Of a DNA stretch of 44,429 nt, positions 4,195 to 42,031 are shown piece after piece (the first letter of the stretch is position 1; each line of letters begins with the position of its first letter). The DNA lies in IMG/VR virus record IMGVR_UViG_3300028612_001997, positions 1-44,429 of that record, one strand, 5' to 3'. Position numbers and translations under genes: made by a program. Origin of the DNA: a virus. Under the pieces are notes generated by a model that saw only the letters and a program-made list of their open reading frames with translations, had not been told where the DNA came from and made no database searches.

Positions 4195-4497
4195 GGCTCG
4201 GAAAAAGGTAATAAAGGTAACCAATCTCAGAAATATGACCTAAGCCATTGAAAATAATTAAATTAAAACAGGCGTTCAAAAGGTAATAAAAAGGTGATCA
4301 ATAGGTAACCACATTACCTTTTAAAAAGGTGAATTGAGCATTTTATAAAACCTATTAATATCAATAACTTAAACAAAGATTACCTTTTGCATCACCTTTT
4401 ATTACCTTTTAGAGGTAATCTATAAGTCATTTAAAATCAGTTAGTTAGGATCAAAAAAGAGCCTGATCACCTAGATTACCTTTTCCCGACACCCCCC
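4195..4497. repeat. Iteron cluster with nested dyad symmetry (candidate origin or centromere-like site)
   Basis: About eleven copies of AAAAGGTRAT or close variants lie here in both orientations. Rightward copies start near 4202, 4213, 4278, 4288, 4301 and 4323. Leftward copies lie at 4313-4322, 4379-4388, 4391-4400, 4401-4410 and 4475-4484. The outer arms begin and end with a run of six G or six C followed by a CGG/CCG-like block. The inner arms (4278-4310 and 4379-4420) are inverted copies of one another. The centre (4333-4378) is very AT-rich. No coding region crosses it. It resembles an iteron origin such as P4 ori/crr, but could be a partition site or integrase/excisionase arms. Confidence 0.7.
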
Positions 4498-4820
4498 ATG
4501 CTTCTTAGAACTCCACCTCATGGCTGTGTCACTCCACCTGCTGTGTGAAGAAATTCGCATGATTCCGCATGAAAATAGGCGTATGAAATTTGGCTGTAAG
4601 CCCTAGTGACGGCGCGGCTTAGCGGCATGTGCATGGGTGCATAAAAACACACAGGTTTAGCGCGCAGGCGGGGCGGGGAGTCGATGGCGCGCCAGGGGGT
4701 GCGGGCGGCTTGATTGACAGCTGGGGGCGGTGCCGCTAGTCTTAGCCCCAAGAGTGTAGTAGCTTGATGACTGCCGGATCTCCGCGCCCGATAGACGTGG
4801 TTTTTTTATGCCTGCTTTTT
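4498..4820. other. Non-coding stretch between the iterons and the antirepressor leader
   Basis: No credible gene is seen. The base composition changes abruptly from very AT-rich (iterons) to GC-rich around 4660-4740. A short CTGGGTAACCCAG palindrome at 4821-4833, followed by a T run at 4838-4842, closes the stretch and could be a weak terminator or attenuator before the C4-like RNA. Confidence 0.4.
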
Positions 4821-4843
4821 CTGGGTAACCCAGCCAGTTTTTA

Positions 4844-4923
4844 TGGCCGGGAGGGTGACGGATACAATACCCGCAAGGGGAAGAAGTCACACCGTGCAGT
4901 CACGGCTACTAACCTCCCGGCCA
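4844..4923 (+). ncRNA. C4-like antisense RNA upstream of the antirepressor genes
   Basis: The segment is closed by an 11-bp perfect stem, TGGCCGGGAGG (4844-4854) with CCTCCCGGCCA (4913-4923). Inside are a stem GTGAC/GTCAC (4855-4859, 4886-4890), a CCC-GCAA-GGG hairpin (4870-4879) and a CCGTG-CAGT-CACGG hairpin (4892-4105 region, ending 4905). This multi-hairpin junction just before an antirepressor operon matches the layout of the C4 RNA of P1/P7 and many prophages, which blocks translation of the ant operon in the lysogen. The fold is seen; the family assignment is from memory of that architecture. Confidence 0.6.
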
Positions 4924-4965
4924 CCTCATTCGTGGTGGTCAACCGTTTAGTAGCGGAGACTGTTT

Positions 4966-5724
4966 ATGTCAGCCCACATCATTCCTTTCCAGTTCGATAC
5001 CCAAGAAGTCCGCACGCTGTTGATTGACGAACAGCCGTGGTTTTTTGCCATGGATGTATGCGCTGCGCTGGATCTGCGTGACACCAACAAAGCGCTGATC
5101 GGGTTGGACGACGACGAGAAACGTAAACACGAACAGTATTCGGGTTCGGGTAGAAAACCCATACTAATCAATGAGTCTGGTCTGTATTCCCTGATACTAC
5201 GCAGCCGTAAAACCGAGGCACGCCGGTTCAAGAAGTGGGTGACCGCCGAGGTGCTGCCCGCTATCCGCAAGTATGGCTACTACGATATTTCTTCGACCAC
5301 TATCGGTACCGATGGCCTGCATATCCTGCATGAATTGATTGGCAAAAAGCTCAAACGTTTGCCGAGCGCCCAACAGCGCCAAGCGCGTTCCCAGCTATGG
5401 GGATTGGTACACACACGCTTCAACGTGCCCAGGGCCGAACTGATCCCAGCCGATGAGTTAAACAACGCCTGCAACTTTATTGCCGCCTGTGCCCCACATC
5501 CCGCCATACCCACCGCCAGCCCGCTGGACAGCAGCGACTGCACCAACCTGTATGCCCTGTGCCACCATATGCAGGCGTTGCGGCAGCTTGACCGCCAGTA
5601 CCATCTTTACGAGGCGCTTAGCCAGCTAGGTTCCCCGGCAGGCAAAGCGATGTACAGCCACATGGTAGACGGTGCCGCGATTGCGGGCCGCTACCTTGAG
5701 CGCCTACAGCAGCAAGTCCACTAA
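4966..5724 (+). CDS. BRO-N/P22AR-type phage antirepressor
   Basis: The product has 252 residues. The N-terminal BRO domain (about 8-105) contains WFFAMDVCAALDLRDTNKAL and the typical end RRFKKWVTAEVLPAIRKYG. The C-terminal part (about 118-250) resembles the P22AR antirepressor domain. Such proteins bind or bypass the prophage repressor to start the lytic cycle. GCGGAG lies upstream of the ATG. The gene follows the C4-like RNA by about 40 bp and is followed after 25 bp by an AntA-type gene, so both probably form one operon under antisense-RNA control. Confidence 0.9.
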   Translation: MSAHIIPFQFDTQEVRTLLIDEQPWFFAMDVCAALDLRDTNKALIGLDDDEKRKHEQYSGSGRKPILINESGLYSLILRSRKTEARRFKKWVTAEVLPAIRKYGYYDISSTTIGTDGLHILHELIGKKLKRLPSAQQRQARSQLWGLVHTRFNVPRAELIPADELNNACNFIAACAPHPAIPTASPLDSSDCTNLYALCHHMQALRQLDRQYHLYEALSQLGSPAGKAMYSHMVDGAAIAGRYLERLQQQVH

Positions 5725-5749
5725 TCGATTGTTAGCAAAGGAGAAACCC

Positions 5750-6394
5750 ATGAACGATATGATGATTCCGGTGTTTCAGTCGGAGGAGGCGCTGCTGTGC
5801 AACGCCCGTGACCTGCATGAGTTTTTGGAAGTAGGCAGGCGATTCACGACTTGGATTCAAGAGCGAATCGAACAGTATGGATTTGAAGAAGGATTAGATT
5901 TCCTAGTCTTAGAAATGGTGCCTGGAAAAGGCCACAAAACCTCCTCCCAAAATGGGGAAGCCCTGAAATCAATCACTTACGCTGAAAACTTCGGCCAGCA
6001 GGGTCGTATTGAGTACCACCTGACGATTGGAATGGCCAAAGAACTGGCGATGATCGAAAACAACGCCATGGGCCGCAAGGTGCGGCGCTACTTTATCCAG
6101 CGTGAACGGCAAGCCGTGGCGCTGTTAAAGCAGCAGGCGACTGAGGTGCAGCCACTGGAACAGGTGCGGAAGCGCATCAAGGACACGCCGAAGTTCCGCT
6201 ACCTGCTCATTTTGCAGGAACAAAGCCGCACCCTAGCGCGGGAGCTTGCCAGGAACGAAGACCCACGGGAGCGGTTCAACCTGCACTGCGCTCTGCGGCA
6301 GGTGAATGATGCGATTGGCCTGCCCACTGAACCATTAGAGGTGTGGAACGCCACACACCTCCCACCGGCACCGCCACAGATTGCTTCCACCTAA
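5750..6394 (+). CDS. AntA-type antirepressor, copy 1
   Basis: This 214-residue protein has an AntA/AntB domain (about 5-110) with CNARDLHEFLEVGRRFTTWI and the shared segment YHLTIGMAKELAMIENNAMG, then a helical C-terminal region. It is likely an antirepressor or early regulator. The ATG at 5750 is chosen because AAAGGAG stands 7 bp before it; the frame is open further upstream only through overlap with the BRO gene. It is a clear paralogue of the protein at 39906-40607: most of both halves align, but the linker at about residues 50-85 differs. A strong terminator follows. Confidence 0.88.
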   Translation: MNDMMIPVFQSEEALLCNARDLHEFLEVGRRFTTWIQERIEQYGFEEGLDFLVLEMVPGKGHKTSSQNGEALKSITYAENFGQQGRIEYHLTIGMAKELAMIENNAMGRKVRRYFIQRERQAVALLKQQATEVQPLEQVRKRIKDTPKFRYLLILQEQSRTLARELARNEDPRERFNLHCALRQVNDAIGLPTEPLEVWNATHLPPAPPQIAST

Positions 6395-16884: not shown

Positions 16885-17563
16885 CCACCTGCTACCACCT
16901 AACGCCACCCCCCAAGAGCGCGCCGTCAGCGAAACGCTAAGCCGCACCGACGCTATCAGCGTGCCCATTCGCGAGCTATGGCGGCCGCAAGAATGCCCCG
17001 CCCGCCTGCTGCCCTGGCTGGCCTGGGCACTCTCGGTGGATGAGTGGGATGAGCAGTGGAGCGAGGCACAAAAGCGCAATGCGATTGATGCCTCGGTATA
17101 CCTGCACCGGCACAAAGGCACCCCGGCTGCGGTGCAGCGCGCGGTAGATCTCATATTTGAGGAAGCCGAAGTACAGGAGTGGTTTCACTACGGTGGCCAG
17201 CCCTTTCATTTTCGCGTAGTGAGCGAAGGCGCGTTCACCAGCGAACGCGACTACCAGCGCCTAATTCGCCTGATCGAATCCGCCAAGAACGCCCGTAGCT
17301 GGCTGGAATCCATTGTCATCCGTAGCCGGATTACCCAGGCAATCACCCTCGCCACCGCTACCGCACAAGGCGTGCATACCCGCATGGGGCCGCGCCCGGC
17401 AACACCCCGCAACGATCCCAGTGAATTCAACATCGGCTCCGCGCAGCACTGCGCTTCACACGTTCGCATTTCACCCTGGCAGCTACGCCTGGTGATGGGC
17501 GAAGCCGCTACCGCCCACACCACCGCCTATCACGAACACCGTCATATCACCGTAAGAGGTTAA
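16877..17563 (+). CDS. I: Tail protein, P2 gpI family
   Basis: The 228-residue protein matches the gpI baseplate family. Typical parts are RELWRPQECPARLLPWLAWALSVDEWDE and HKGTPAAVQRAVDLIF. gpI links the baseplate to the tail fibres. It overlaps J and is followed after 4 bp by the fibre gene. Confidence 0.95.
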   Translation: MANHLLPPNATPQERAVSETLSRTDAISVPIRELWRPQECPARLLPWLAWALSVDEWDEQWSEAQKRNAIDASVYLHRHKGTPAAVQRAVDLIFEEAEVQEWFHYGGQPFHFRVVSEGAFTSERDYQRLIRLIESAKNARSWLESIVIRSRITQAITLATATAQGVHTRMGPRPATPRNDPSEFNIGSAQHCASHVRISPWQLRLVMGEAATAHTTAYHEHRHITVRG

Positions 17564-26602: not shown

Positions 26603-27046
26603 ATGTTAATGGCGTTAGGCATGTTCGTATTTGAGACCCGTAGCGTGCCCTACCAGGAATTAAAGCGCATCACCGAATGGCGGCACCCCAGCCAATCCCG
26701 CGTGGGGCAGCGGCCCGCTTACCAGTTTGCTGGCCCAGGGGCGGACACCATCACCCTAAGCGGCACCCTGCTGCCCACCTTCACCGGCGGCCGCTTTAGC
26801 CTGGATGAGATCCGCGAGATGGCCGACCAGGGCAACGCCTGGCCGCTGGTCGAAGGCACTGGCCGCCAGTACGGCTTATGGGTGGTCACCCGCGTGGAAG
26901 AAACCAGCACCCATTTTTTCCGCGACGGTGCCGCCGAAAAAATTGAGTTCAATCTCACACTCGAGCACGTCGATGATGAGCGCACCGACCTGATCGGCCG
27001 CTTGGTACTGCCCGCCATGGCGCGTTTGGCCGGGGGCTACGTATGA
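26603..27046 (+). CDS. U: Tail protein, P2 gpU family
   Basis: The 147-residue protein matches gpU: MLMALGMFVFETRSVPYQ at the start, then RPAYQFAGPGADTITLSGTL. It is a baseplate/tail-tip part. GGAG lies before the ATG. It overlaps D by ATGA. Confidence 0.96.
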   Translation: MLMALGMFVFETRSVPYQELKRITEWRHPSQSRVGQRPAYQFAGPGADTITLSGTLLPTFTGGRFSLDEIREMADQGNAWPLVEGTGRQYGLWVVTRVEETSTHFFRDGAAEKIEFNLTLEHVDDERTDLIGRLVLPAMARLAGGYV

Positions 27047-28029
27047 ACGCCTACCCCAAGCCCAGCTACCGCATCACCCTGGATGGCAGCGACATCACCC
27101 CGCGCATCAATGGCCGCCTGATCAGCCTCTCGCTGCGCGAGCAGCGCGGGCTGGCAGCCGACCAGCTGGATATCACCCTAGCCGACCACGACGGCCAGCT
27201 CGCCATTCCCCCACGCGGGGCCGAGCTGCAGGTGGCGTTTGGCTGGCAGGAGGAAGGGCTAGTGGATAAAGGCCGCTTTACGGTGGATGAAGTGCAGCAC
27301 ACCGGCACGCCGGATCAGCTCACCATCCGCGCCCGCTCGGCGGATATGCGCGGCCAGCTGCCCGGCAAGCGCACCCAGGGCTGGCACGATGTCACGCTGG
27401 GCGAGATCGTCACCACCATCGCAGGCCGCAACCGCCTGGAGCCAGTGGTGGCCGCCGCGCTCAACGGCATTCGTATTGGCCATATCGACCAAACCGACGA
27501 ATCCGACCTGAATTTTCTCACCCGCCTGGGCGAACGGTACGATGCCATTGCCGCCATCAAAGCCGGGCGCATGCTGTTCACCGTGGCAGGCCAAGGGCTA
27601 ACGGCCAGCGGCCGCGCCATGCCCGCCATCACCCTCACCCGCCGCGACGGCGACCAGCACCGCTACAGCGTGACCGACCGCGACGCCTACAGCGGCGTAA
27701 AAGCCTACTGGAACGACACGCGAGGCGCAGAGCGCCACACCGTACTGGCAGGCACGGAAGAGAACGCCAAACAGCTACGCCCCACCTACGCCACGGAAGA
27801 CGACGCCCTCGCCGCCGCCCGCGCCGAATGGCAACGCATCCAACGCGGTTTGGCAGAGTTTGAGCTAACGCTGGCACTAGGCCGCGCCGACCTGCTGCCC
27901 GAAACCCCGCTCAAGCTAACGGGCTTCAAGCCTCAGGTCGACGCCACGGCCTGGCTGGTGAGCGAGGTCACGCACTCGCTGAATGATGGGGGGTTGGGGA
28001 CGGTGGTTAGGTGTGAGGTGAAGGGTTAA
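27043..28029 (+). CDS. D: Tail hub/late control protein, P2 gpD family
   Basis: The 328-residue protein is the baseplate hub that holds the spike. Family features are PSYRITLDGSDITPRINGRLISLSL near the N terminus and the LNFLTRLGERYDAIAAIKAGRMLF segment. It ends the F operon, as in P2, where ogr usually follows; here cargo genes follow instead. Confidence 0.96.
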   Translation: MNAYPKPSYRITLDGSDITPRINGRLISLSLREQRGLAADQLDITLADHDGQLAIPPRGAELQVAFGWQEEGLVDKGRFTVDEVQHTGTPDQLTIRARSADMRGQLPGKRTQGWHDVTLGEIVTTIAGRNRLEPVVAAALNGIRIGHIDQTDESDLNFLTRLGERYDAIAAIKAGRMLFTVAGQGLTASGRAMPAITLTRRDGDQHRYSVTDRDAYSGVKAYWNDTRGAERHTVLAGTEENAKQLRPTYATEDDALAAARAEWQRIQRGLAEFELTLALGRADLLPETPLKLTGFKPQVDATAWLVSEVTHSLNDGGLGTVVRCEVKG

Positions 28030-28908: not shown

Positions 28909-29259
28909 CTACAACGCCCAACACCGCGCCTGCCTGACCACCACCCCACGAAACTGCGACGCCGTGATGAAGCACCCTTCTCCACCCGTGGGTGGCAACA
29001 GGCGGCAGCGGCTGCCCACGCGCTGGGTTTTGAATAACCGGTACTCGCCCTCTACCTCCGCCACCACCAGATCCGCATGGCCATACGAGCGCGCTTCGTC
29101 CACCACCAGCACGTCGCCTTCCATCCATGGCCCACCGGGGTGCGCCTCGTCGCTGATCTCCACCAGAAAACAGGTCGGCGGAAATTTTCGCCGATCCATC
29201 TCCGCTACCGCCGGGTGCTCCACACCCACCACGGCAGGCCCCAAGTAGGTCACTCGCAT
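28909..29259 (-). CDS. UmuD/LexA-fold protein lacking the catalytic serine
   Basis: The 116-residue protein has the UmuD-type fold: FLVEISDEAHPGG, then EGDVLVVDEARSYGHADLVVAEVEGEYRLFK. Aligned with UmuD, the catalytic Ser position is Ala (SDEAH against SGDSM), while the Lys (LFKTQ) remains, so autocleavage is not expected. The ATG at 29259 has AGGG about 8 bp upstream; a GTG at 29283 is an alternative. A perfect LexA box lies 72 bp before the start, in its promoter. It may act as a non-cleavable UmuD analogue that modulates translesion polymerase or RecA. Confidence 0.8.
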   Translation of the reverse strand: MRVTYLGPAVVGVEHPAVAEMDRRKFPPTCFLVEISDEAHPGGPWMEGDVLVVDEARSYGHADLVVAEVEGEYRLFKTQRVGSRCRLLPPTGGEGCFITASQFRGVVVRQARCWAL

Positions 29260-29304
29260 GTTGTTGCCCTGTGCTAGCTCCACATTTAGCGACGTGTCTA
29301 AGCA

Positions 29305-29333
29305 TTGACCGTCGCTTCCCTAATGCTTAATAC
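29305..29333 (+). promoter_or_regulatory. Sigma-70 promoter reading toward the methylase
   Basis: TTGACC (29305-29310), a 17-bp spacer and TAATAC (29328-29333) make a near-consensus rightward promoter. Its -10 and start region are covered by the LexA box. Facing it on the minus strand is TTGTTA (29358-29353) with CAGTAT (29335-29330), also 17 bp apart, for the UmuD-like gene. Confidence 0.7.
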
Positions 29334-29350
29334 TGTACAAGAAGACAGTA
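29331..29350. promoter_or_regulatory. LexA-binding site (SOS box)
   Basis: TACTGTACAAGAAGACAGTA fits the gammaproteobacterial LexA consensus CTGT-N8-ACAG with perfect six-base half-sites. It overlaps divergent promoters for the UmuD-like gene (minus) and for the UmuC remnant plus methylase (plus). Confidence 0.9.
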
Positions 29351-29391
29351 TTTAACAAGGGTTATGGAAGGGCACTTTCAGCCCATAGCTA

Positions 29392-29658
29392 ATGGCCACC
29401 ATGGACGCCCTGAACGAGAAAATGGGAAAAGGCACGGTACGCCTGGGCCTACCGGAAAAGAACGCCCCTTGGCACCTCCGCTGCGCGAACCGAAGCCCGC
29501 GCTATACGACGAATTGGGATGAGTTGATGGTGGCTTATACGGATGAGGGGGCGGCTAGGAAAGCTAAGACTAATGTCACGCCTGACAACAGTTCTCTACA
29601 ACCTCAAAATTGCTGCTCGATGTCGGGCAAAAAAACATATAGAATGGTGGCACGCTAG
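29392..29658 (+). pseudogene. UmuC C-terminal (DUF4113) remnant
   Basis: The first 45 codons encode the UmuC C-terminal tail: MATMDALNEKMGKGTVRLGL and then SPRYTTNWDELM, as in DUF4113. The polymerase catalytic domains are absent. The frame continues about 40 codons without homology and stops within the ribosome site of the methylase gene. It is either debris of a umuDC operon or a retained free-standing tail, which in full-length UmuC contacts other proteins. Confidence 0.8.
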
Positions 29659-29670
29659 GAGGAGTGTTTG

Positions 29671-30747
29671 ATGATTGAAGCAGTGGATTTGTTTTGTGGT
29701 GCGGGAGGTCTCACGGCTGGCTTACGCCAAGCAGGAATTACCGTTCGCGCTGGTTACGATATCGAAGAAAACTGCCGGTTTGCCTATGAGCATAACAATC
29801 ACGCTCAGTTTATAAACCAAGACGTTGGGGAGCTTACAGGTGACGACATCAATGACTGGTATCAAGAACCTGAAGCACTTCGCCTACTAGCAGGCTGTGC
29901 ACCCTGCCAGCCATTTTCTACTTATAATCAAGGCAAAGACACCACCAAAGACAAAAAGTGGCCATTACTCGGCGCTTTCGCACGGTTGATAAAAGAAGCT
30001 CAACCCGAGCTGGTCACCATGGAAAATGTCCCCTCGGTCACCAAGCACCAGATTTATCACGACTTCGTAGAATCTCTTAAAGACGAGGGATATTACGTCT
30101 GGGCGGATACCGTAAAGTGCATTGAGTACGGCTTACCTCAAAATCGCCGCCGGCATGTACTGCTAGCCTCCAAGTTAGGGCCGATCGAACTTATATTCGC
30201 GACCCATCCTGCCCCCGTTACTGTAAAAGATACCATTGGCGAATTAGAGCCAATAGCGGCCGGTGGCGAAAGCCCTAACGATCCCCTTCACCGGGCGGCT
30301 ACCCTATCGGAACTGAACATGCAGCGTATCAAGCATTCAGTGCCAGGCGGCACCTGGAAAGACTGGCCAGAGGAGCTAGTATCAGGGTGTCACACGAAGC
30401 CGAGTGGCAAAACGTATTCCAGCGTTTACGGACGCATGCGCTGGGAAGAACCAAGCCCTACCATGACGACGTTATGCTACGGCTTTGGAAACGGCAGGTT
30501 TGGCCACCCTGAGCAAGATCGGGCACTTAGTTTACGAGAAGCCGCCATGCTGCAATCGTTTCCAAAAGATTATTTCTTTGCACCTGACGATCAGCCCATT
30601 TTAATGAGACCAGTTGGCCGAATGATTGGCAATGCCGTTCCCGTCCGCTTGGGAGAAGTAATAGGGCTGAGCTTCACTCGACACCTTGAGGCTCTACGCC
30701 CATGGGAGGAAGACCGAATTCCTGCTGAAGAAGAGATTCTAGCTTAG
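29671..30747 (+). CDS. DNA (cytosine-5-)-methyltransferase
   Basis: The 358-residue enzyme transfers a methyl group from SAM to C5 of cytosine in its recognition sequence. All key motifs are present in order: DLFCGAGG (6-13), GCAPCQPFS with catalytic Cys 79, MENVP (117-121), QNRRR (157-161), and GNAVP near the C terminus. The variable target-recognition region lies at about 190-270. AGGAGG and an 8-bp gap fix the ATG at 29671. It is convergent with the GHKL/nuclease gene and is the likely protective partner. No terminator is seen between it and the LexA-box promoter. Confidence 0.95.
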   Translation: MIEAVDLFCGAGGLTAGLRQAGITVRAGYDIEENCRFAYEHNNHAQFINQDVGELTGDDINDWYQEPEALRLLAGCAPCQPFSTYNQGKDTTKDKKWPLLGAFARLIKEAQPELVTMENVPSVTKHQIYHDFVESLKDEGYYVWADTVKCIEYGLPQNRRRHVLLASKLGPIELIFATHPAPVTVKDTIGELEPIAAGGESPNDPLHRAATLSELNMQRIKHSVPGGTWKDWPEELVSGCHTKPSGKTYSSVYGRMRWEEPSPTMTTLCYGFGNGRFGHPEQDRALSLREAAMLQSFPKDYFFAPDDQPILMRPVGRMIGNAVPVRLGEVIGLSFTRHLEALRPWEEDRIPAEEEILA

Positions 30748-30769
30748 AAAAACCTCTGGCCTCGCACTC

Positions 30770-30898
30770 TCAAACGATCAGTACTCGCCATACCAACGCC
30801 CGCAAGGCTTCCACCTTGCGGGCGTCGTGTTTCACGTTGCGCTGAGACTTCGGTAGCCAAATTCCTAGCTTGTCTTTGGCGTAGATGTGAAAAGCCAT
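30770..30898 (-). CDS. Possible small protein downstream of the nuclease gene
   Basis: A 42-codon frame starts 7 bp after the nuclease stop and has AGGAAATAG before its ATG. It reads MAFHIYAKDKLGIWLPKSQR and continues to a hydrophobic end. The hairpin at 30796-30825 lies within it, so it may be only a chance reading of a terminator region, or a remnant of a gene cut by the cassette. Confidence 0.25.
   Translation of the reverse strand: MAFHIYAKDKLGIWLPKSQRNVKHDARKVEALRALVWRVLIV
30796..30833. terminator. Hairpin between convergent methylase and nuclease genes
   Basis: A perfect 12-bp stem ACGCCCGCAAGG/CCTTGCGGGCGT with a 6-base loop is followed on the plus strand by CGTGTTTC. The T run is weak, so termination strength is uncertain. 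Confidence 0.55.
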
Positions 30899-30905
30899 CT
30901 ATTTC

Positions 30906-33197
30906 CTAAAATCGATCAACTATTTCCTCGATTCGAGCAACTTTATTATCCTGCTGAAGGTACTCGCTATACCCATTAAGAGCTCCAGTAATTAGTTCAT
31001 GATAAGTTTTAATCTTAGAGCCGGGTGAAACAAAGTCCATCAAACTTTTCATCTTTTCAGGAGTTGCATCGGGAGGTCTACCCACAACGAAAACAACTTC
31101 TATATCAGGGTCAATTACATTAGATTGAAACAATATTTTTCTAAGCTTTCGAACATATTTCTCGCCCTGTTCAGCCAATTGCAAAGCTGGAGTGTTGACG
31201 CTAGCTCGCTTCAATTCAACAATTATATGCTTTCCAGCATAAGTTTTATAGGCAATATCGATTCTACCCTTGAGCTCTTCTGGTGTAAGCTTAGCATCAC
31301 CAAACCCGTCATTGTCTCTCAAGTTAGTTTCGATGACCTCACTTCCAGCTGCCCTTTCCCAAGCAGGATCAATTAACCACAAATGTTCGAAAAGCGATTC
31401 CTGAAGAATTTTTTCGCGTTTATCTTCATTAACATCATTATGAAAGGCTCGAATTATCGAAAGTCTGCCTTTCACTATATCCCTATATAATGAAGCTTCT
31501 AAGTCATCAATGGAACCAATCAAATTAAGCAAATTTTTAACATCGACTTCAGAAGTTTGAGAAAGCTGATGCGACATTCCTTGTAGCCGAAGCCTTTCGA
31601 AAGCCACGACACCTTGACGAAGCAAATCTTTCCTATCTTCTTTGTTATCGATATCCGCCTTGCTAATCAAAGTGACTACTTTCTCAGCTTCTTTTCGCAA
31701 ACCAGCATCCATCGTATTTAACCATTCAGTAACGGCAGGATGCTGATCCTTGAGTTTTTTCGTCTTATACTTTTCTCTCCATTTGTTCCACTGCGGCTCT
31801 ATATCTTTATTGAGAACGCTTTTTAGATATATGAGCAACTGTTGTACTCTTGGGTCGTCTTCGATCAACCGTTGTCGATCACTAGTGGCTACGTCGTCGT
31901 CCCCTTCATCAAGAAAGTCAACTTCGATTTGGCCAGTTATATAGTGTGTAAAATGCTTGGCATCACTGACTTCTTTAAGTATATTTTCATGAATCAATCG
32001 TCCCCTGGATAGCACGACGATCCCGTTGAGATTGCCAGAAGGAAGCTTTAGATCCGTAGGTAAATTCGCAGTCCCAACCCATCCCTTTATTTCCCAATCC
32101 GTATCCCAACCTTCTAAACGGCTCTTGACACTCGAGTGTTCTAAAATATTGGTTCTACCATCATGAAATTTTGACGTCGCACCGATATTCCATAAGAACT
32201 CTACTACTTTCAAATCACCTCGGTCCGTCGAAGTTACCTCGTTTCCGTTGACAAAAACCTTGAAATCCAAAGACCCGATAACGGAGAAGCGCCTGGCTAG
32301 ATGCTGGGGAAGATGGTGTTTGGTAGTAGATAACCTAGCCTTTTTAAGCCCACTCAATTTAATAATAGTACCTTTGTCAATTTCGACATTCTCTTCATTG
32401 AGTGGCAAAGGTTTGTATTGAGAATCTCTTTGGGCCATGCTACTGCGAATGTCCTCTACATTCATGACGCACCCATGTTTCTCACCATCTTTACAGGACT
32501 GAATTTCGATGATGTCCGCAATTGAGAACAAAGAAAGCTTTCCTAACCCCTTCCTCCCCATGACAAGTCTTTTTTTCTTCAGAGAACGCTGTAGTCGATT
32601 GTCAACGCCACGCCTTTTATAAGCAACAGTCAGATACTTATCGTTCATATCTGTCACACTCATACCGTGACCATCATCTTGAATCGTAATCTGATCATTA
32701 TCGACATCAAGATATATATGTACGTTTTCTGCATCCGCATCGTACGAGTTTGCTACGGCTTCCGTCAAAACGGCTGTAACGTTGCTATAAAGATTAATAC
32801 CAAGATGCTCAAGTGCATGAAGGCTTATACTTAGTTCGTACGGATTCGGATTGGAAATTAATTTTTCCACGAACTTCTCCCTATAATCACCAACAGATAT
32901 ATTATCTATTTTTTTAAAGTATGATCTAAAAGTATTAACTTGATATAAGTGGAAATTTCCTGAAATGACATCTGATATTAAAAAGCCTTCAAAAATAAAA
33001 GAGGTATATTCTTTCTTTTTATCGGCATCAACAGTCTCATATAAAACTTGAAAATCATGGGTAAAATCATCACTACCCCTTCTTTCAAGTAACAAAGTCT
33101 TATGTGGCGAAAATATTGATTTAACATAGTCCAGAAATTGATCTTCATTATAATTATATGAAGTATCTTTATTTTTTGTATTATTAACTTCAATCAT
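30906..33197 (-). CDS. GHKL-ATPase/PD-(D/E)XK protein, probable restriction enzyme
   Basis: The 763-residue protein has a GHKL ATPase domain: N-box LTEAVANSYDA (Glu 146, Asn 150), DDGHGM (174-179) and GRKGLGK (214-220). A long helical middle follows. The C terminus has a nuclease-like core: GRIDIAYK (Asp 647) and IIVELKRA (Glu 661, Lys 663), fitting PD-(D/E)XK. This layout recalls proteins annotated as BbrUII/HgiDII-family restriction enzymes, which pair with C5 methylases. The gene is much richer in A+T than the phage. Its ATG overlaps the repressor stop as ATGA, so it is probably co-transcribed with the repressor in the lysogen. Confidence 0.8.
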   Translation of the reverse strand: MIEVNNTKNKDTSYNYNEDQFLDYVKSIFSPHKTLLLERRGSDDFTHDFQVLYETVDADKKKEYTSFIFEGFLISDVISGNFHLYQVNTFRSYFKKIDNISVGDYREKFVEKLISNPNPYELSISLHALEHLGINLYSNVTAVLTEAVANSYDADAENVHIYLDVDNDQITIQDDGHGMSVTDMNDKYLTVAYKRRGVDNRLQRSLKKKRLVMGRKGLGKLSLFSIADIIEIQSCKDGEKHGCVMNVEDIRSSMAQRDSQYKPLPLNEENVEIDKGTIIKLSGLKKARLSTTKHHLPQHLARRFSVIGSLDFKVFVNGNEVTSTDRGDLKVVEFLWNIGATSKFHDGRTNILEHSSVKSRLEGWDTDWEIKGWVGTANLPTDLKLPSGNLNGIVVLSRGRLIHENILKEVSDAKHFTHYITGQIEVDFLDEGDDDVATSDRQRLIEDDPRVQQLLIYLKSVLNKDIEPQWNKWREKYKTKKLKDQHPAVTEWLNTMDAGLRKEAEKVVTLISKADIDNKEDRKDLLRQGVVAFERLRLQGMSHQLSQTSEVDVKNLLNLIGSIDDLEASLYRDIVKGRLSIIRAFHNDVNEDKREKILQESLFEHLWLIDPAWERAAGSEVIETNLRDNDGFGDAKLTPEELKGRIDIAYKTYAGKHIIVELKRASVNTPALQLAEQGEKYVRKLRKILFQSNVIDPDIEVVFVVGRPPDATPEKMKSLMDFVSPGSKIKTYHELITGALNGYSEYLQQDNKVARIEEIVDRF

Positions 33198-33859
33198 ACA
33201 ACCCGCCCAATGCGAATCTCACACCGCCCCAGAATCTCCACATCGTGCATATCCTGCGGCTTGATCATCTCCGGCTGGTAGTGGTCGTTATCACTAATCA
33301 AATACAACGCCCCGCCCGCCAAGCGCTGCACCCGCTTAATCCGCCGCTCGCCACTCACCAGCAGCAGAAAAACCCCTTCCTGCTTAGGGTCACGGTTGCT
33401 GCGATCCACCAGCACCCAGTCGCCATCGGCCAGAGTGCCGTCCATCGAATCGCCGCGCACTTTAATGCCCACCACCTGGGCAGGGTCTAGCCCCTGCTCG
33501 GCCAGCTCGCTGCTAGGAAAATGAAGGGTGGTTTTGATCGGCTCGCCTTCGAAGCTACGACCAGCGCCCGCAGCAGCTTCGATGTCGTACATCTTGATGG
33601 GTGAAAGCTCTGCCGATGGTTCACTTAACGCAACCCCTAGAGGTTGAGCAGTGGCAGTTCCTGAACGCTGGCCTTTGAGCACGTAAAAGACATCTACGCC
33701 TTCATCAGAAACGGCGGAAAGGTAGGAAGAATCAGGGCTGCTGGCACCTTTTTCATATTTGATCTGGGTGGTTTTTCCTACACCCCCAATCTGCGCAAGG
33801 GCCGTTTGGCTCAACCCAATCCGCTCACGTTCTTCTCTCAGACGTTCGCCAATGCTCAT
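33194..33859 (-). CDS. Prophage repressor, CI/LexA type (HTH + S24 peptidase)
   Basis: The 221-residue protein has an XRE helix-turn-helix (about 4-60; LSQTALAQIGGVGKTTQIKYE) and a C-terminal S24 domain. The cleavage site is EAAAGAG (Ala-Gly), the catalytic Ser lies in RGDSMDGTL and the Lys in RRIKRVQ. It should be inactivated by RecA-stimulated self-cleavage after DNA damage. P2 itself has a different, non-cleavable C repressor. Operators lie at 33853-33901. The downstream nuclease gene overlaps its stop codon. Confidence 0.92.
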   Translation of the reverse strand: MSIGERLREERERIGLSQTALAQIGGVGKTTQIKYEKGASSPDSSYLSAVSDEGVDVFYVLKGQRSGTATAQPLGVALSEPSAELSPIKMYDIEAAAGAGRSFEGEPIKTTLHFPSSELAEQGLDPAQVVGIKVRGDSMDGTLADGDWVLVDRSNRDPKQEGVFLLLVSGERRIKRVQRLAGGALYLISDNDHYQPEMIKPQDMHDVEILGRCEIRIGRVV

Positions 33860-33870
33860 TTTTATGAACC
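33853..33870. promoter_or_regulatory. Repressor operator O1
   Basis: TGCTCATTTTTATGAACC is an imperfect copy of O2 that overlaps the repressor start codon, so binding would block the repressor's own expression. Confidence 0.65.
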
Positions 33871-33877
33871 ACCCTTA

Positions 33878-33908
33878 TTGACAGGTTCATTTTTGTGAAC
33901 CATTCTAT
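33878..33908 (+). promoter_or_regulatory. Early rightward promoter with operator O2 in its spacer
   Basis: TTGACA (33878-33883) is followed by the perfect palindrome GGTTCATTTTTGTGAACC (33884-33901) and a poor -10 (CATTCT or TTCTAT). Repressor bound to the palindrome would shut the early promoter. Confidence 0.7.
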
Positions 33909-40875: not shown

Positions 40876-41931
40876 CTAGCGCAACTGCAGTTTTTCCGGC
40901 CTCAAGTGCGTATACCGCTTCAACACATCCCAGCTCTCGTGGAGCGTGAACTGCTGCACCTCCACGATCTCATAGCCCGCCTCGAACAGCCGCGACGTCG
41001 CTTCATGGCGTAGGTCGTGAAAGTGCAGATCCTCAATCCCTTTGGCGGCTGTCGCAGCCCGAAAGCGAGTGCCAATCGATTTAGCACTGAAGGGGAAAAT
41101 ACGCGGCTCGCCTTTCGCTCTTGGCTGCCGCTGAATGATGGCCATCGCTTCGTGGGTGAGCTTGAAGCGCTTATGGTTGCCCCACTTTTGGCGTGGGTGC
41201 TTGGCGTCACGCACCCAGCAGGTCATGGCCGTTTCATCCAGGTCATCCCAAGTAAGCCGGGTGATTTCCTCCTGGCGACGTGAAGAGGCGATGGCGAAGT
41301 CCATGATGTCTTCCATTGGAATGATCGCGCTCGGCCGGATCTTCTGCGAGCGCTGGAAGTAAGCTCGGAGCTGCTCGATCTCCTTCAACGTCGGCCGTCG
41401 ATCGCGAGATGCTGGGCGAGATATTAGCCCTTTGCTACGCAGCAATAGCTTGGCCGACTCGAACTCGTTCAGATCCACCGGCATACGCCAGGCAGCCACC
41501 GCTGTTTTTAAGATGATGCCCAGCCAGGTGATATCTTGCGCCGTCGTGGATGGCTTTACCCCGCTACGGCGCCGCATCTGTGCATGATCGATGATCTGCT
41601 CGCTGCTGAGCTCGGTGATTTTCACCCGAGCAATGGGGAAGCGCCGAAGCTGCTCGATAGTGGCCCGCTTACTGCGGCCTGCCCCATCAGCAAACTCATG
41701 CAGGTAGCGCTCGATCGCATCGTGCAAAATCACGCCTTTCCACTTAGCGGTCAGCACACCACCTGGGGCTGCCAGCTCCAGCTCCCGGCGCTTCGCCCAC
41801 TCCTCAGCCATTGCCTTTCTAGGGAATGTTTTCGACTCTGAGTAGTCAGGTTGCCCACGGCGGGCAATGCGAATTTGCACCAGATATGAGAAACTGCCGT
41901 CCTTCTTACGGCGCTTGCGAATCGTTGCCAT
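40876..41931 (-). CDS. int: Tyrosine-recombinase integrase
   Basis: The 351-residue enzyme inserts and excises the prophage at dusA. It has an N-terminal arm-binding region (RKRRKKDGSFSYLVQIR), a SAM-like core-binding domain (about 65-165) and the catalytic domain with Arg 218, His 305-x2-Arg 308, His 331 and the nucleophile Tyr 340 (KRYTHL). The ATG at 41931 follows GAGGGG; a longer upstream start would run into candidate arm sites. The gene ends facing inward and starts 170 bp from the attR core. Confidence 0.94.
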   Translation of the reverse strand: MATIRKRRKKDGSFSYLVQIRIARRGQPDYSESKTFPRKAMAEEWAKRRELELAAPGGVLTAKWKGVILHDAIERYLHEFADGAGRSKRATIEQLRRFPIARVKITELSSEQIIDHAQMRRRSGVKPSTTAQDITWLGIILKTAVAAWRMPVDLNEFESAKLLLRSKGLISRPASRDRRPTLKEIEQLRAYFQRSQKIRPSAIIPMEDIMDFAIASSRRQEEITRLTWDDLDETAMTCWVRDAKHPRQKWGNHKRFKLTHEAMAIIQRQPRAKGEPRIFPFSAKSIGTRFRAATAAKGIEDLHFHDLRHEATSRLFEAGYEIVEVQQFTLHESWDVLKRYTHLRPEKLQLR

Positions 41932-41944
41932 ACTTGCCCCTCGA

Positions 41945-41987
41945 TGTACCAAATTCAAAGCGGCTCAAGTACCAGAAATGTACCAAC
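41945..41987 (+). repeat. Candidate integrase arm sites, right
   Basis: TGTACCAAATT (41945-41955) and GTACCAGAAATGTACCAAC (41969-41987) match the left arm-like site at 4078-4096 in the same orientation. They lie between int and attR. Confidence 0.4.
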
Positions 41988-42031
41988 GAACCATGTAAAA
42001 CGCCGCTTAACCACTGTAAATATGAACAGTT

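Follow-up and report, generated by a model that had tools for sequence, protein, structure and literature searches.

We analysed a 44,429-base stretch of DNA (the window) from the IMG/VR virus record IMGVR_UViG_3300028612_001997, which holds a P2-like prophage. Between a LexA box and the phage repressor gene it carries a C5-cytosine methyltransferase gene (M) and a nuclease gene (R), which face each other and have the makings of a type II restriction-modification (RM) system. Throughout, W denotes the window locus and L-numbers denote the loci compared with it. The features of the locus are as follows.

28909-29283, minus strand: UmuD-like gene, GTG start at 29283 and conserved ATG at 29259 (phrog_811, E 3.5e-8)
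29305-29336, plus strand: weak sigma-70-like promoter TTGACC-N18-AATACT, 9 of 12 positions, overlapping the LexA box
29331-29350, no strand: LexA box TACTGTACAAGAAGACAGTA between the divergent UmuD-like and umuC genes, the site being kept in siblings
29389-29568 (open reading frame (ORF) 29392-29658), plus strand: umuC remnant, the C-terminal DUF4113 tail (PF13438, E 6.2e-20)
29605-29670, plus strand: block conserved upstream of this class of M, putatively its own promoter or operator with a ribosome site
29671-30747, plus strand: M, C5-cytosine DNA methyltransferase, 358 amino acids (PF00145, E 1.1e-50)
30796-30825, plus strand: hairpin of 12 bp between the convergent M and R (z -3.0), a likely terminator
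30906-33197, minus strand: R, BbrUII/HgiDII-type nuclease (paraMORC3, GHKL plus nuclease), 763 amino acids (NF050001; phrog_6203, E 8e-189)
33194-33859, minus strand: repressor, HTH_3 (PF01381) plus Peptidase_S24 (PF00717) (phrog_4, E 1e-40)

The repressor combines a helix-turn-helix (HTH) with an S24 domain, and its Ala-Gly, Ser and Lys set, read by eye, is AAAGAG, RGDSMDG and RRIKRV. Its last codons are GTA TGA, and the ATG contained in them is the start of R, which gives an ATGA overlap on the minus strand. R scores 738 bits on NCBIfam NF050001 (BbrUII/HgiDII; cut-off 550), a match that covers residues 120-762 only. It contains a GHKL domain (PF13589, E 2e-18) and the PD-(D/E)XK part of NF050001, and the motifs DDGHG, GRKGLGK and IVELKR can be read in it, most of them kept in an alignment of R sequences (A2). 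The GHKL-nuclease family found in RM contexts is known as paraMORC3 (PMC2292703). HgiDII recognises GTCGAC, and M.HgiDII is a 5-methylcytosine methylase (PMC5867850). Since R lies above the family cut-off, GTCGAC is its predicted target, as judged from the family only; the window contains 7 such sites. The C5 methylase partner expected of R is present as its convergent neighbour M. By predicted gene content, the RM system is complete; it occupies the cargo bay of a Halomonas-type, P2-like prophage integrated at dusA.

Residues 1-119 of R (32841-33197, minus strand) form an extra stretch at 27% GC, the conserved-length body of the protein beginning only at about residue 117. No relatives of this stretch were found in 275 Halomonadaceae genomes or in viral contigs. 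A GTG at codon 110, preceded by a ribosome-site-like AGGGAG, offers an alternative start. We estimate the chance of 109 open codons at 27% GC at about 7e-5, and because such a run is improbable the long form of R is probably coding. A start at codon 110 or 120, which would make the overlap with the repressor spurious, was accordingly disfavoured, even though the search for relatives of the AT-rich stretch came up empty.

The LexA box contains the core CTGTN8ACAG at 29333-29348, one of 2 exact cores in the window where 0.34 were expected. Its place relative to the divergent gene is the same in siblings, and the box is for this reason not attributable to chance. In siblings with intact umuC, the box lies at the same spot, between the divergent UmuD-like gene and umuC. 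It follows that the LexA promoter is an ancestral umuD/umuC element of the phage and that M now occupies the position of umuC, of which W retains a tail 93% identical to UmuC residues 375-434 of L027. The layout without intact umuC is common to W and its siblings L002, L015 and L025. The idea that the LexA box was recruited for the RM system was rejected, since the umuC-intact siblings show it to be the umuD/umuC promoter. Promoter matches of the 9-of-12 kind occur at chance density in the window (9 found, 7.5 expected), and conservation is better evidence for the LexA promoter than its hexamer score.

M is 82, 82 and 78% identical to the M of three other Halomonadaceae loci. The block of about 65 bp before it is kept in L009, L048 and L054, where all sequence further upstream differs. 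Because M has this conserved upstream block of its own, LexA cannot be the sole control on it; the unstressed lysogen must already produce M, and any SOS control can only come on top. A search for intrinsic terminators, the only kind sought, found none on the plus strand between the LexA box and M. A candidate structured RNA in the same interval was dropped, as it had neither an Rfam match nor an unusual fold.

What the initial annotation of this locus observed, from the sequence alone, was confirmed. Its reading of the ATGA overlap between nuclease gene and repressor stop, the GHKL/PD-(D/E)XK identity of R, the complete self-cleavage set of the repressor, the perfect LexA box, the convergent C5 methylase and the absence of a terminator between box and methylase all agree with the features above. 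It had also stated that C5 methylases pair with GHKL proteins of this kind in some restriction systems, and homologues of M and R do pair in plasmids and in a coliphage. "Near-consensus" was a generous description of the weak promoter that overlaps the LexA box. The annotation had not seen the UmuD-like gene beyond the box, the identity of the 29392-29658 ORF as a umuC remnant, the block belonging to M, or the cargo bay.

Strand bias and recurrence of the layout

From viral contigs and Halomonadaceae genomes we gathered 130 loci with the UmuD-like gene, 105 of which extend to the repressor and represent 83 distinct bays. In these bays methylases lie 19 times on the plus (SOS) strand and once on the minus (repressor) strand. 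Other cargo of at least 200 amino acids is distributed 26 plus to 124 minus (Fisher p 6e-12 against the methylases), a count that includes some false ORFs since bay ORFs were called without a gene finder. When counted per methylase family rather than per bay, 6 of 7 families lie on the SOS side (p 2e-4 relative to the background rate). All 19 methylase bays (19/19) lack a terminator on the way from the LexA promoter or umuC to M, and an effector accompanies every methylase in a bay. The median gap from the repressor to the first minus-strand cargo gene is 66 nucleotides (nt; 82 bays), and with so short a gap the cargo is probably transcribed along with the repressor; R, or another effector in its place, would by position be a member of the repressor operon.

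In 13 distinct bays the system is split: the methylase lies on the SOS strand and its partners are encoded on the repressor strand. The methylases come from three families (two C5, one D12), and the effectors differ:

W: HgiDII-type R with a C5 methylase
L009, L054: HEPN_MAE_28990 and GmrSD_N effectors
L003, L011, L019, L025, L026, L034: ParB-like (PD-Lambda-5_A-like) protein and a 326-residue partner
L010, L058, L059, L066: D12 methylases with DndB/DGQHR-like proteins

A scan of viral contigs with one R query sequence found nothing; rescanning them with the R alignment returned 80 viral loci, of which 45 have M and R in tandem and 26 convergent. After removal of near-copies, 18 distinct convergent and 37 distinct tandem pairs remained. 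R is preceded on its own strand by a repressor-like gene in 9/18 convergent pairs versus 1/37 tandem pairs (p 6e-5), and the late tail gene D (gpD) or umuC lies upstream of M in 8/18 versus 0/37 (p 4e-5). Some of the repressor-like genes are an HTH domain only; those of L228 and L235 combine HTH with S24 and are separated from R by 53 and 27 nt, respectively. In L219, the SOS side reads LexA box, umuD (Ser present), umuC, 64 nt, M, and the opposite side reads HTH repressor, 123 nt, R. Judged by gene order, L219 is an independent repeat of the full window layout. A quick tree of R has the arrangement changing at least 7 times and does not place W as sister to L219. The bay survey and the viral R survey together led us to reject the view of W as an isolated oddity.

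Outside this phage group, the HgiDII-type pairs examined in plasmids and chromosomes are mostly tandem M-R (L030, L076, L082, L083, L084, L085/L206, L086, L184), a Deinococcus pair (L080) being convergent. Plasmids of Acinetobacter and Roseateles carry the same D12/DGQHR pair in tandem. The HEPN/GmrSD sets of Roseomonas and Klebsiella plasmids are convergent, and those of a Phaeobacter plasmid and of Halomonadaceae chromosomes are tandem. On a Halomonadaceae chromosome fragment (L199, 2509-6110), a truncated S24 repressor end is followed after 88 nt by a paraMORC-type R and Vsr, and an M 69% identical to that of W is convergent with the R-like gene. Because the truncated repressor end stands directly before the R-like gene, L199 looks like what is left of a prophage that had the same split.

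Several features of the wider prophage were noted alongside. Genes gpU and gpD (26603-28029) close its tail gene set, and the integrase gene (40876-41958, minus strand) adjoins a dusA-like host gene recognised from its sequence. Two phages are near relatives, Halomonas phage vB_HboP_4908 and phage vB_BpuM-ZY1 (L028), the latter inducible with mitomycin C (PMC11448403). L028 was deposited as "Bacillus phage vB_BpuM-ZY1" (OR820920.1) with Bacillus pumilus as its reported host; across most of this region it is >90% identical to Halomonas-type prophages, and the host assignment may be in doubt. The second exact LexA core of the window (42014-42029) is found beside dusA, 56 nt ahead of the integrase start, and L027 likewise has a core (17365-17380) just upstream of its own integrase, so integration and excision may be under SOS control as well.

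The UmuD-like protein has an S24 fold (PF00717, E 0.0012, below cut-off), and the catalytic Ser is missing from all 15 aligned relatives (alignment A1). The S24-like core of the family is invariant; its members appear UmuD'-like and unable to self-cleave, and their genes are divergent from umuC, not tandem with it. Downstream of the UmuD-like gene and on its strand, L027 carries an Eco29kI-type R and a C5 methylase (4493-6345), and L036 has a methylase like that of L027 to the left of its UmuD-like gene. By position, the opposite arm of this LexA promoter holds a further slot for RM genes.

A proposed circuit and competing explanations

We consider it probable that the window carries an HgiDII/BbrUII-type type II RM system in which R is wired to one half of the phage switch and M to the other. 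As the first gene behind the repressor and translationally coupled to it by ATGA, R would be made whenever the repressor is made, that is, during lysogeny, while a basal promoter of M would keep the lysogen methylated. A second input to M would be read-through from the umuD/umuC-type promoter that LexA represses, 320 bp before it. After DNA damage M would increase, and repressor cleavage would alter, and then end, the repressor-R transcript. On induction M would rise as R synthesis stopped, so that the replicating phage genome would be modified; in a newly infected cell, R would not be made before the repressor was, and would follow M. If R cut an under-methylated site, the SOS response would lead to more M, a negative feedback. 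The effect of LexA on M, the fall of R on induction, the protection of induced phage DNA and the resulting benefit to the phage are what we would expect from this arrangement.

The initial annotation had proposed both the split wiring and LexA as the control of the methylase. The split is supported by position and by the recurrence of the layout across bays and unrelated phages (13 bays, the 19:1 bias, L219); one correction is that the box is the phage's ancestral umuD/umuC promoter element and was not acquired for the RM system. Likewise, LexA control of M is favoured by the box upstream and the lack of a terminator, but not as sole control, given the block that belongs to M. More tentatively, and for both statements taken together, temperate phages may follow a general rule in which the destructive half of a defence guarded by methylation sits in the repressor operon and the cognate methylase on the SOS or lytic strand, the switch setting the R:M ratio. 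Damage by R would then act back via LexA and RecA, with M going up and R going down.

Several observations weigh against the split-wiring reading. The conserved block could make LexA read-through a minor contribution, and the LexA promoter scores no better than chance as a sigma-70 promoter. In six bays the SOS strand carries M together with its partner (L004, L006, L032, L119, L137, L143), those of L006, L032 and L119 being NgoMIV-type systems, and in L173 repressor, C5 methylase and a GHKL R-like gene follow in tandem on the repressor strand. The orientation rule is thus strong, not absolute, in the bays compared. Half of the distinct convergent viral pairs (9/18) have no detected repressor-like gene upstream of R, and the convergent layout appears partly intrinsic to HEPN/GmrSD systems.

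One alternative is that the layout is a positional by-product, with M transcribed from its own promoter only, read-through from the LexA promoter irrelevant, convergence a result of cassette arrival or of antisense avoidance, and R beside the repressor simply because cargo lands there. The block that relatives keep immediately before M fits such an account, as do the convergent pairs outside prophages (Deinococcus HgiDII-type; Roseomonas and Klebsiella HEPN/GmrSD) and the retention of M in several bays from which umuC has been wholly lost (L019, L054). Simple inheritance of convergence with the cassette proved partly true of HEPN/GmrSD, and not of HgiDII-type or D12 sets in the records examined: the non-phage HgiDII-type pairs are mostly tandem and D12/DGQHR sets are tandem elsewhere. 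Also speaking against a by-product are the orientation bias by gene kind (19:1 versus 26:124) and L219, which independently has M in an intact umuDC operon. We regard a by-product, taken as a whole, as unlikely.

Less likely still is a reading in which M, as a phage moron, serves mainly as an anti-restriction methylase of lytic growth and R is an independent defence gene, the two not forming a functional pair. Methylases of the same class accompany other effectors (HEPN plus GmrSD) in L009 and L054, M is nearer to those (78-82%) than to the M of paired HgiDII systems, and methylases are expressed on induction in other temperate phages (PMC12707154), which we counted in favour of a moron. Yet homologues of M and R pair repeatedly, no methylase bay lacks an effector, and a lysogen with an intact R should die if cognate methylation were lacking. 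Finally, umuC cut down to its tail and the unusual 119-residue AT-rich extension on R could be signs of an eroding locus whose RM pair is non-functional or unregulated. M, R and the repressor are nevertheless intact long frames with their motifs, and the umuC-less layout, being common to siblings L002, L015 and L025, is old rather than fresh decay; we consider erosion very improbable.

The LexA boxes of the bays with both genes on the SOS strand were also compared. In the NgoMIV-type loci L006, L032 and L119 the box has degenerated (ends CCAT/ACAT), as though selection had acted against an R under SOS control; a good box persists in L137 and L143, and the evidence on such selection is mixed.

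Relation to known systems

That a mobile RM system does not kill a new host, and that a prophage with one does not cut its own genome as it replicates, is usually credited to dedicated timing devices such as C proteins, antisense RNA or gene order. The arrangement described here suggests that a phage decision circuit could itself time an RM system, with the SOS response feeding cutting back to protection. Its recurrence with unrelated methylases, effectors and phages opens the idea to comparison and to simple gene removals. It also yields a rule for searches of prophage cargo: whether a gene shares the repressor's strand helps to separate guard from weapon.

Compared with the HgiDII/BbrUII type II systems, the window has an R above the NF050001 cut-off and an M of the C5 kind that is paired with such R, but its M and R are convergent and in separate transcription units, and its R carries 119 additional N-terminal residues. 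The paraMORC3 RM contexts share the GHKL ATPase fused to an E-D-ExK nuclease beside a cytosine methylase; that source does not describe them as part of a repressor operon or opposite a LexA promoter (PMC2292703). The ParaMORC3/Dcm pair of Escherichia phage PhiR44_1 (PV340563) is likewise prophage-borne and convergent, with the same families, but its M follows the early lytic gene A, its R lies behind the late gene Q, not the repressor, and no LexA/umuC element was seen at its M. With umuDC SOS operons and their phage versions the window group shares the LexA box and the UmuD-like and UmuC genes; it differs in that the UmuD-like gene is divergent from umuC and without catalytic Ser, and in the window umuC is replaced by M.

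Our literature search found no papers on LexA-controlled RM methylases, and such control is not described in the passages searched of PMC3874152 or PMC12707154. The RM control timed by C proteins or antisense RNA that these two sources cover addresses the same problem, namely keeping M before and above R. The difference is that in the window the phage repressor and LexA would set the timing, in place of a dedicated regulator.

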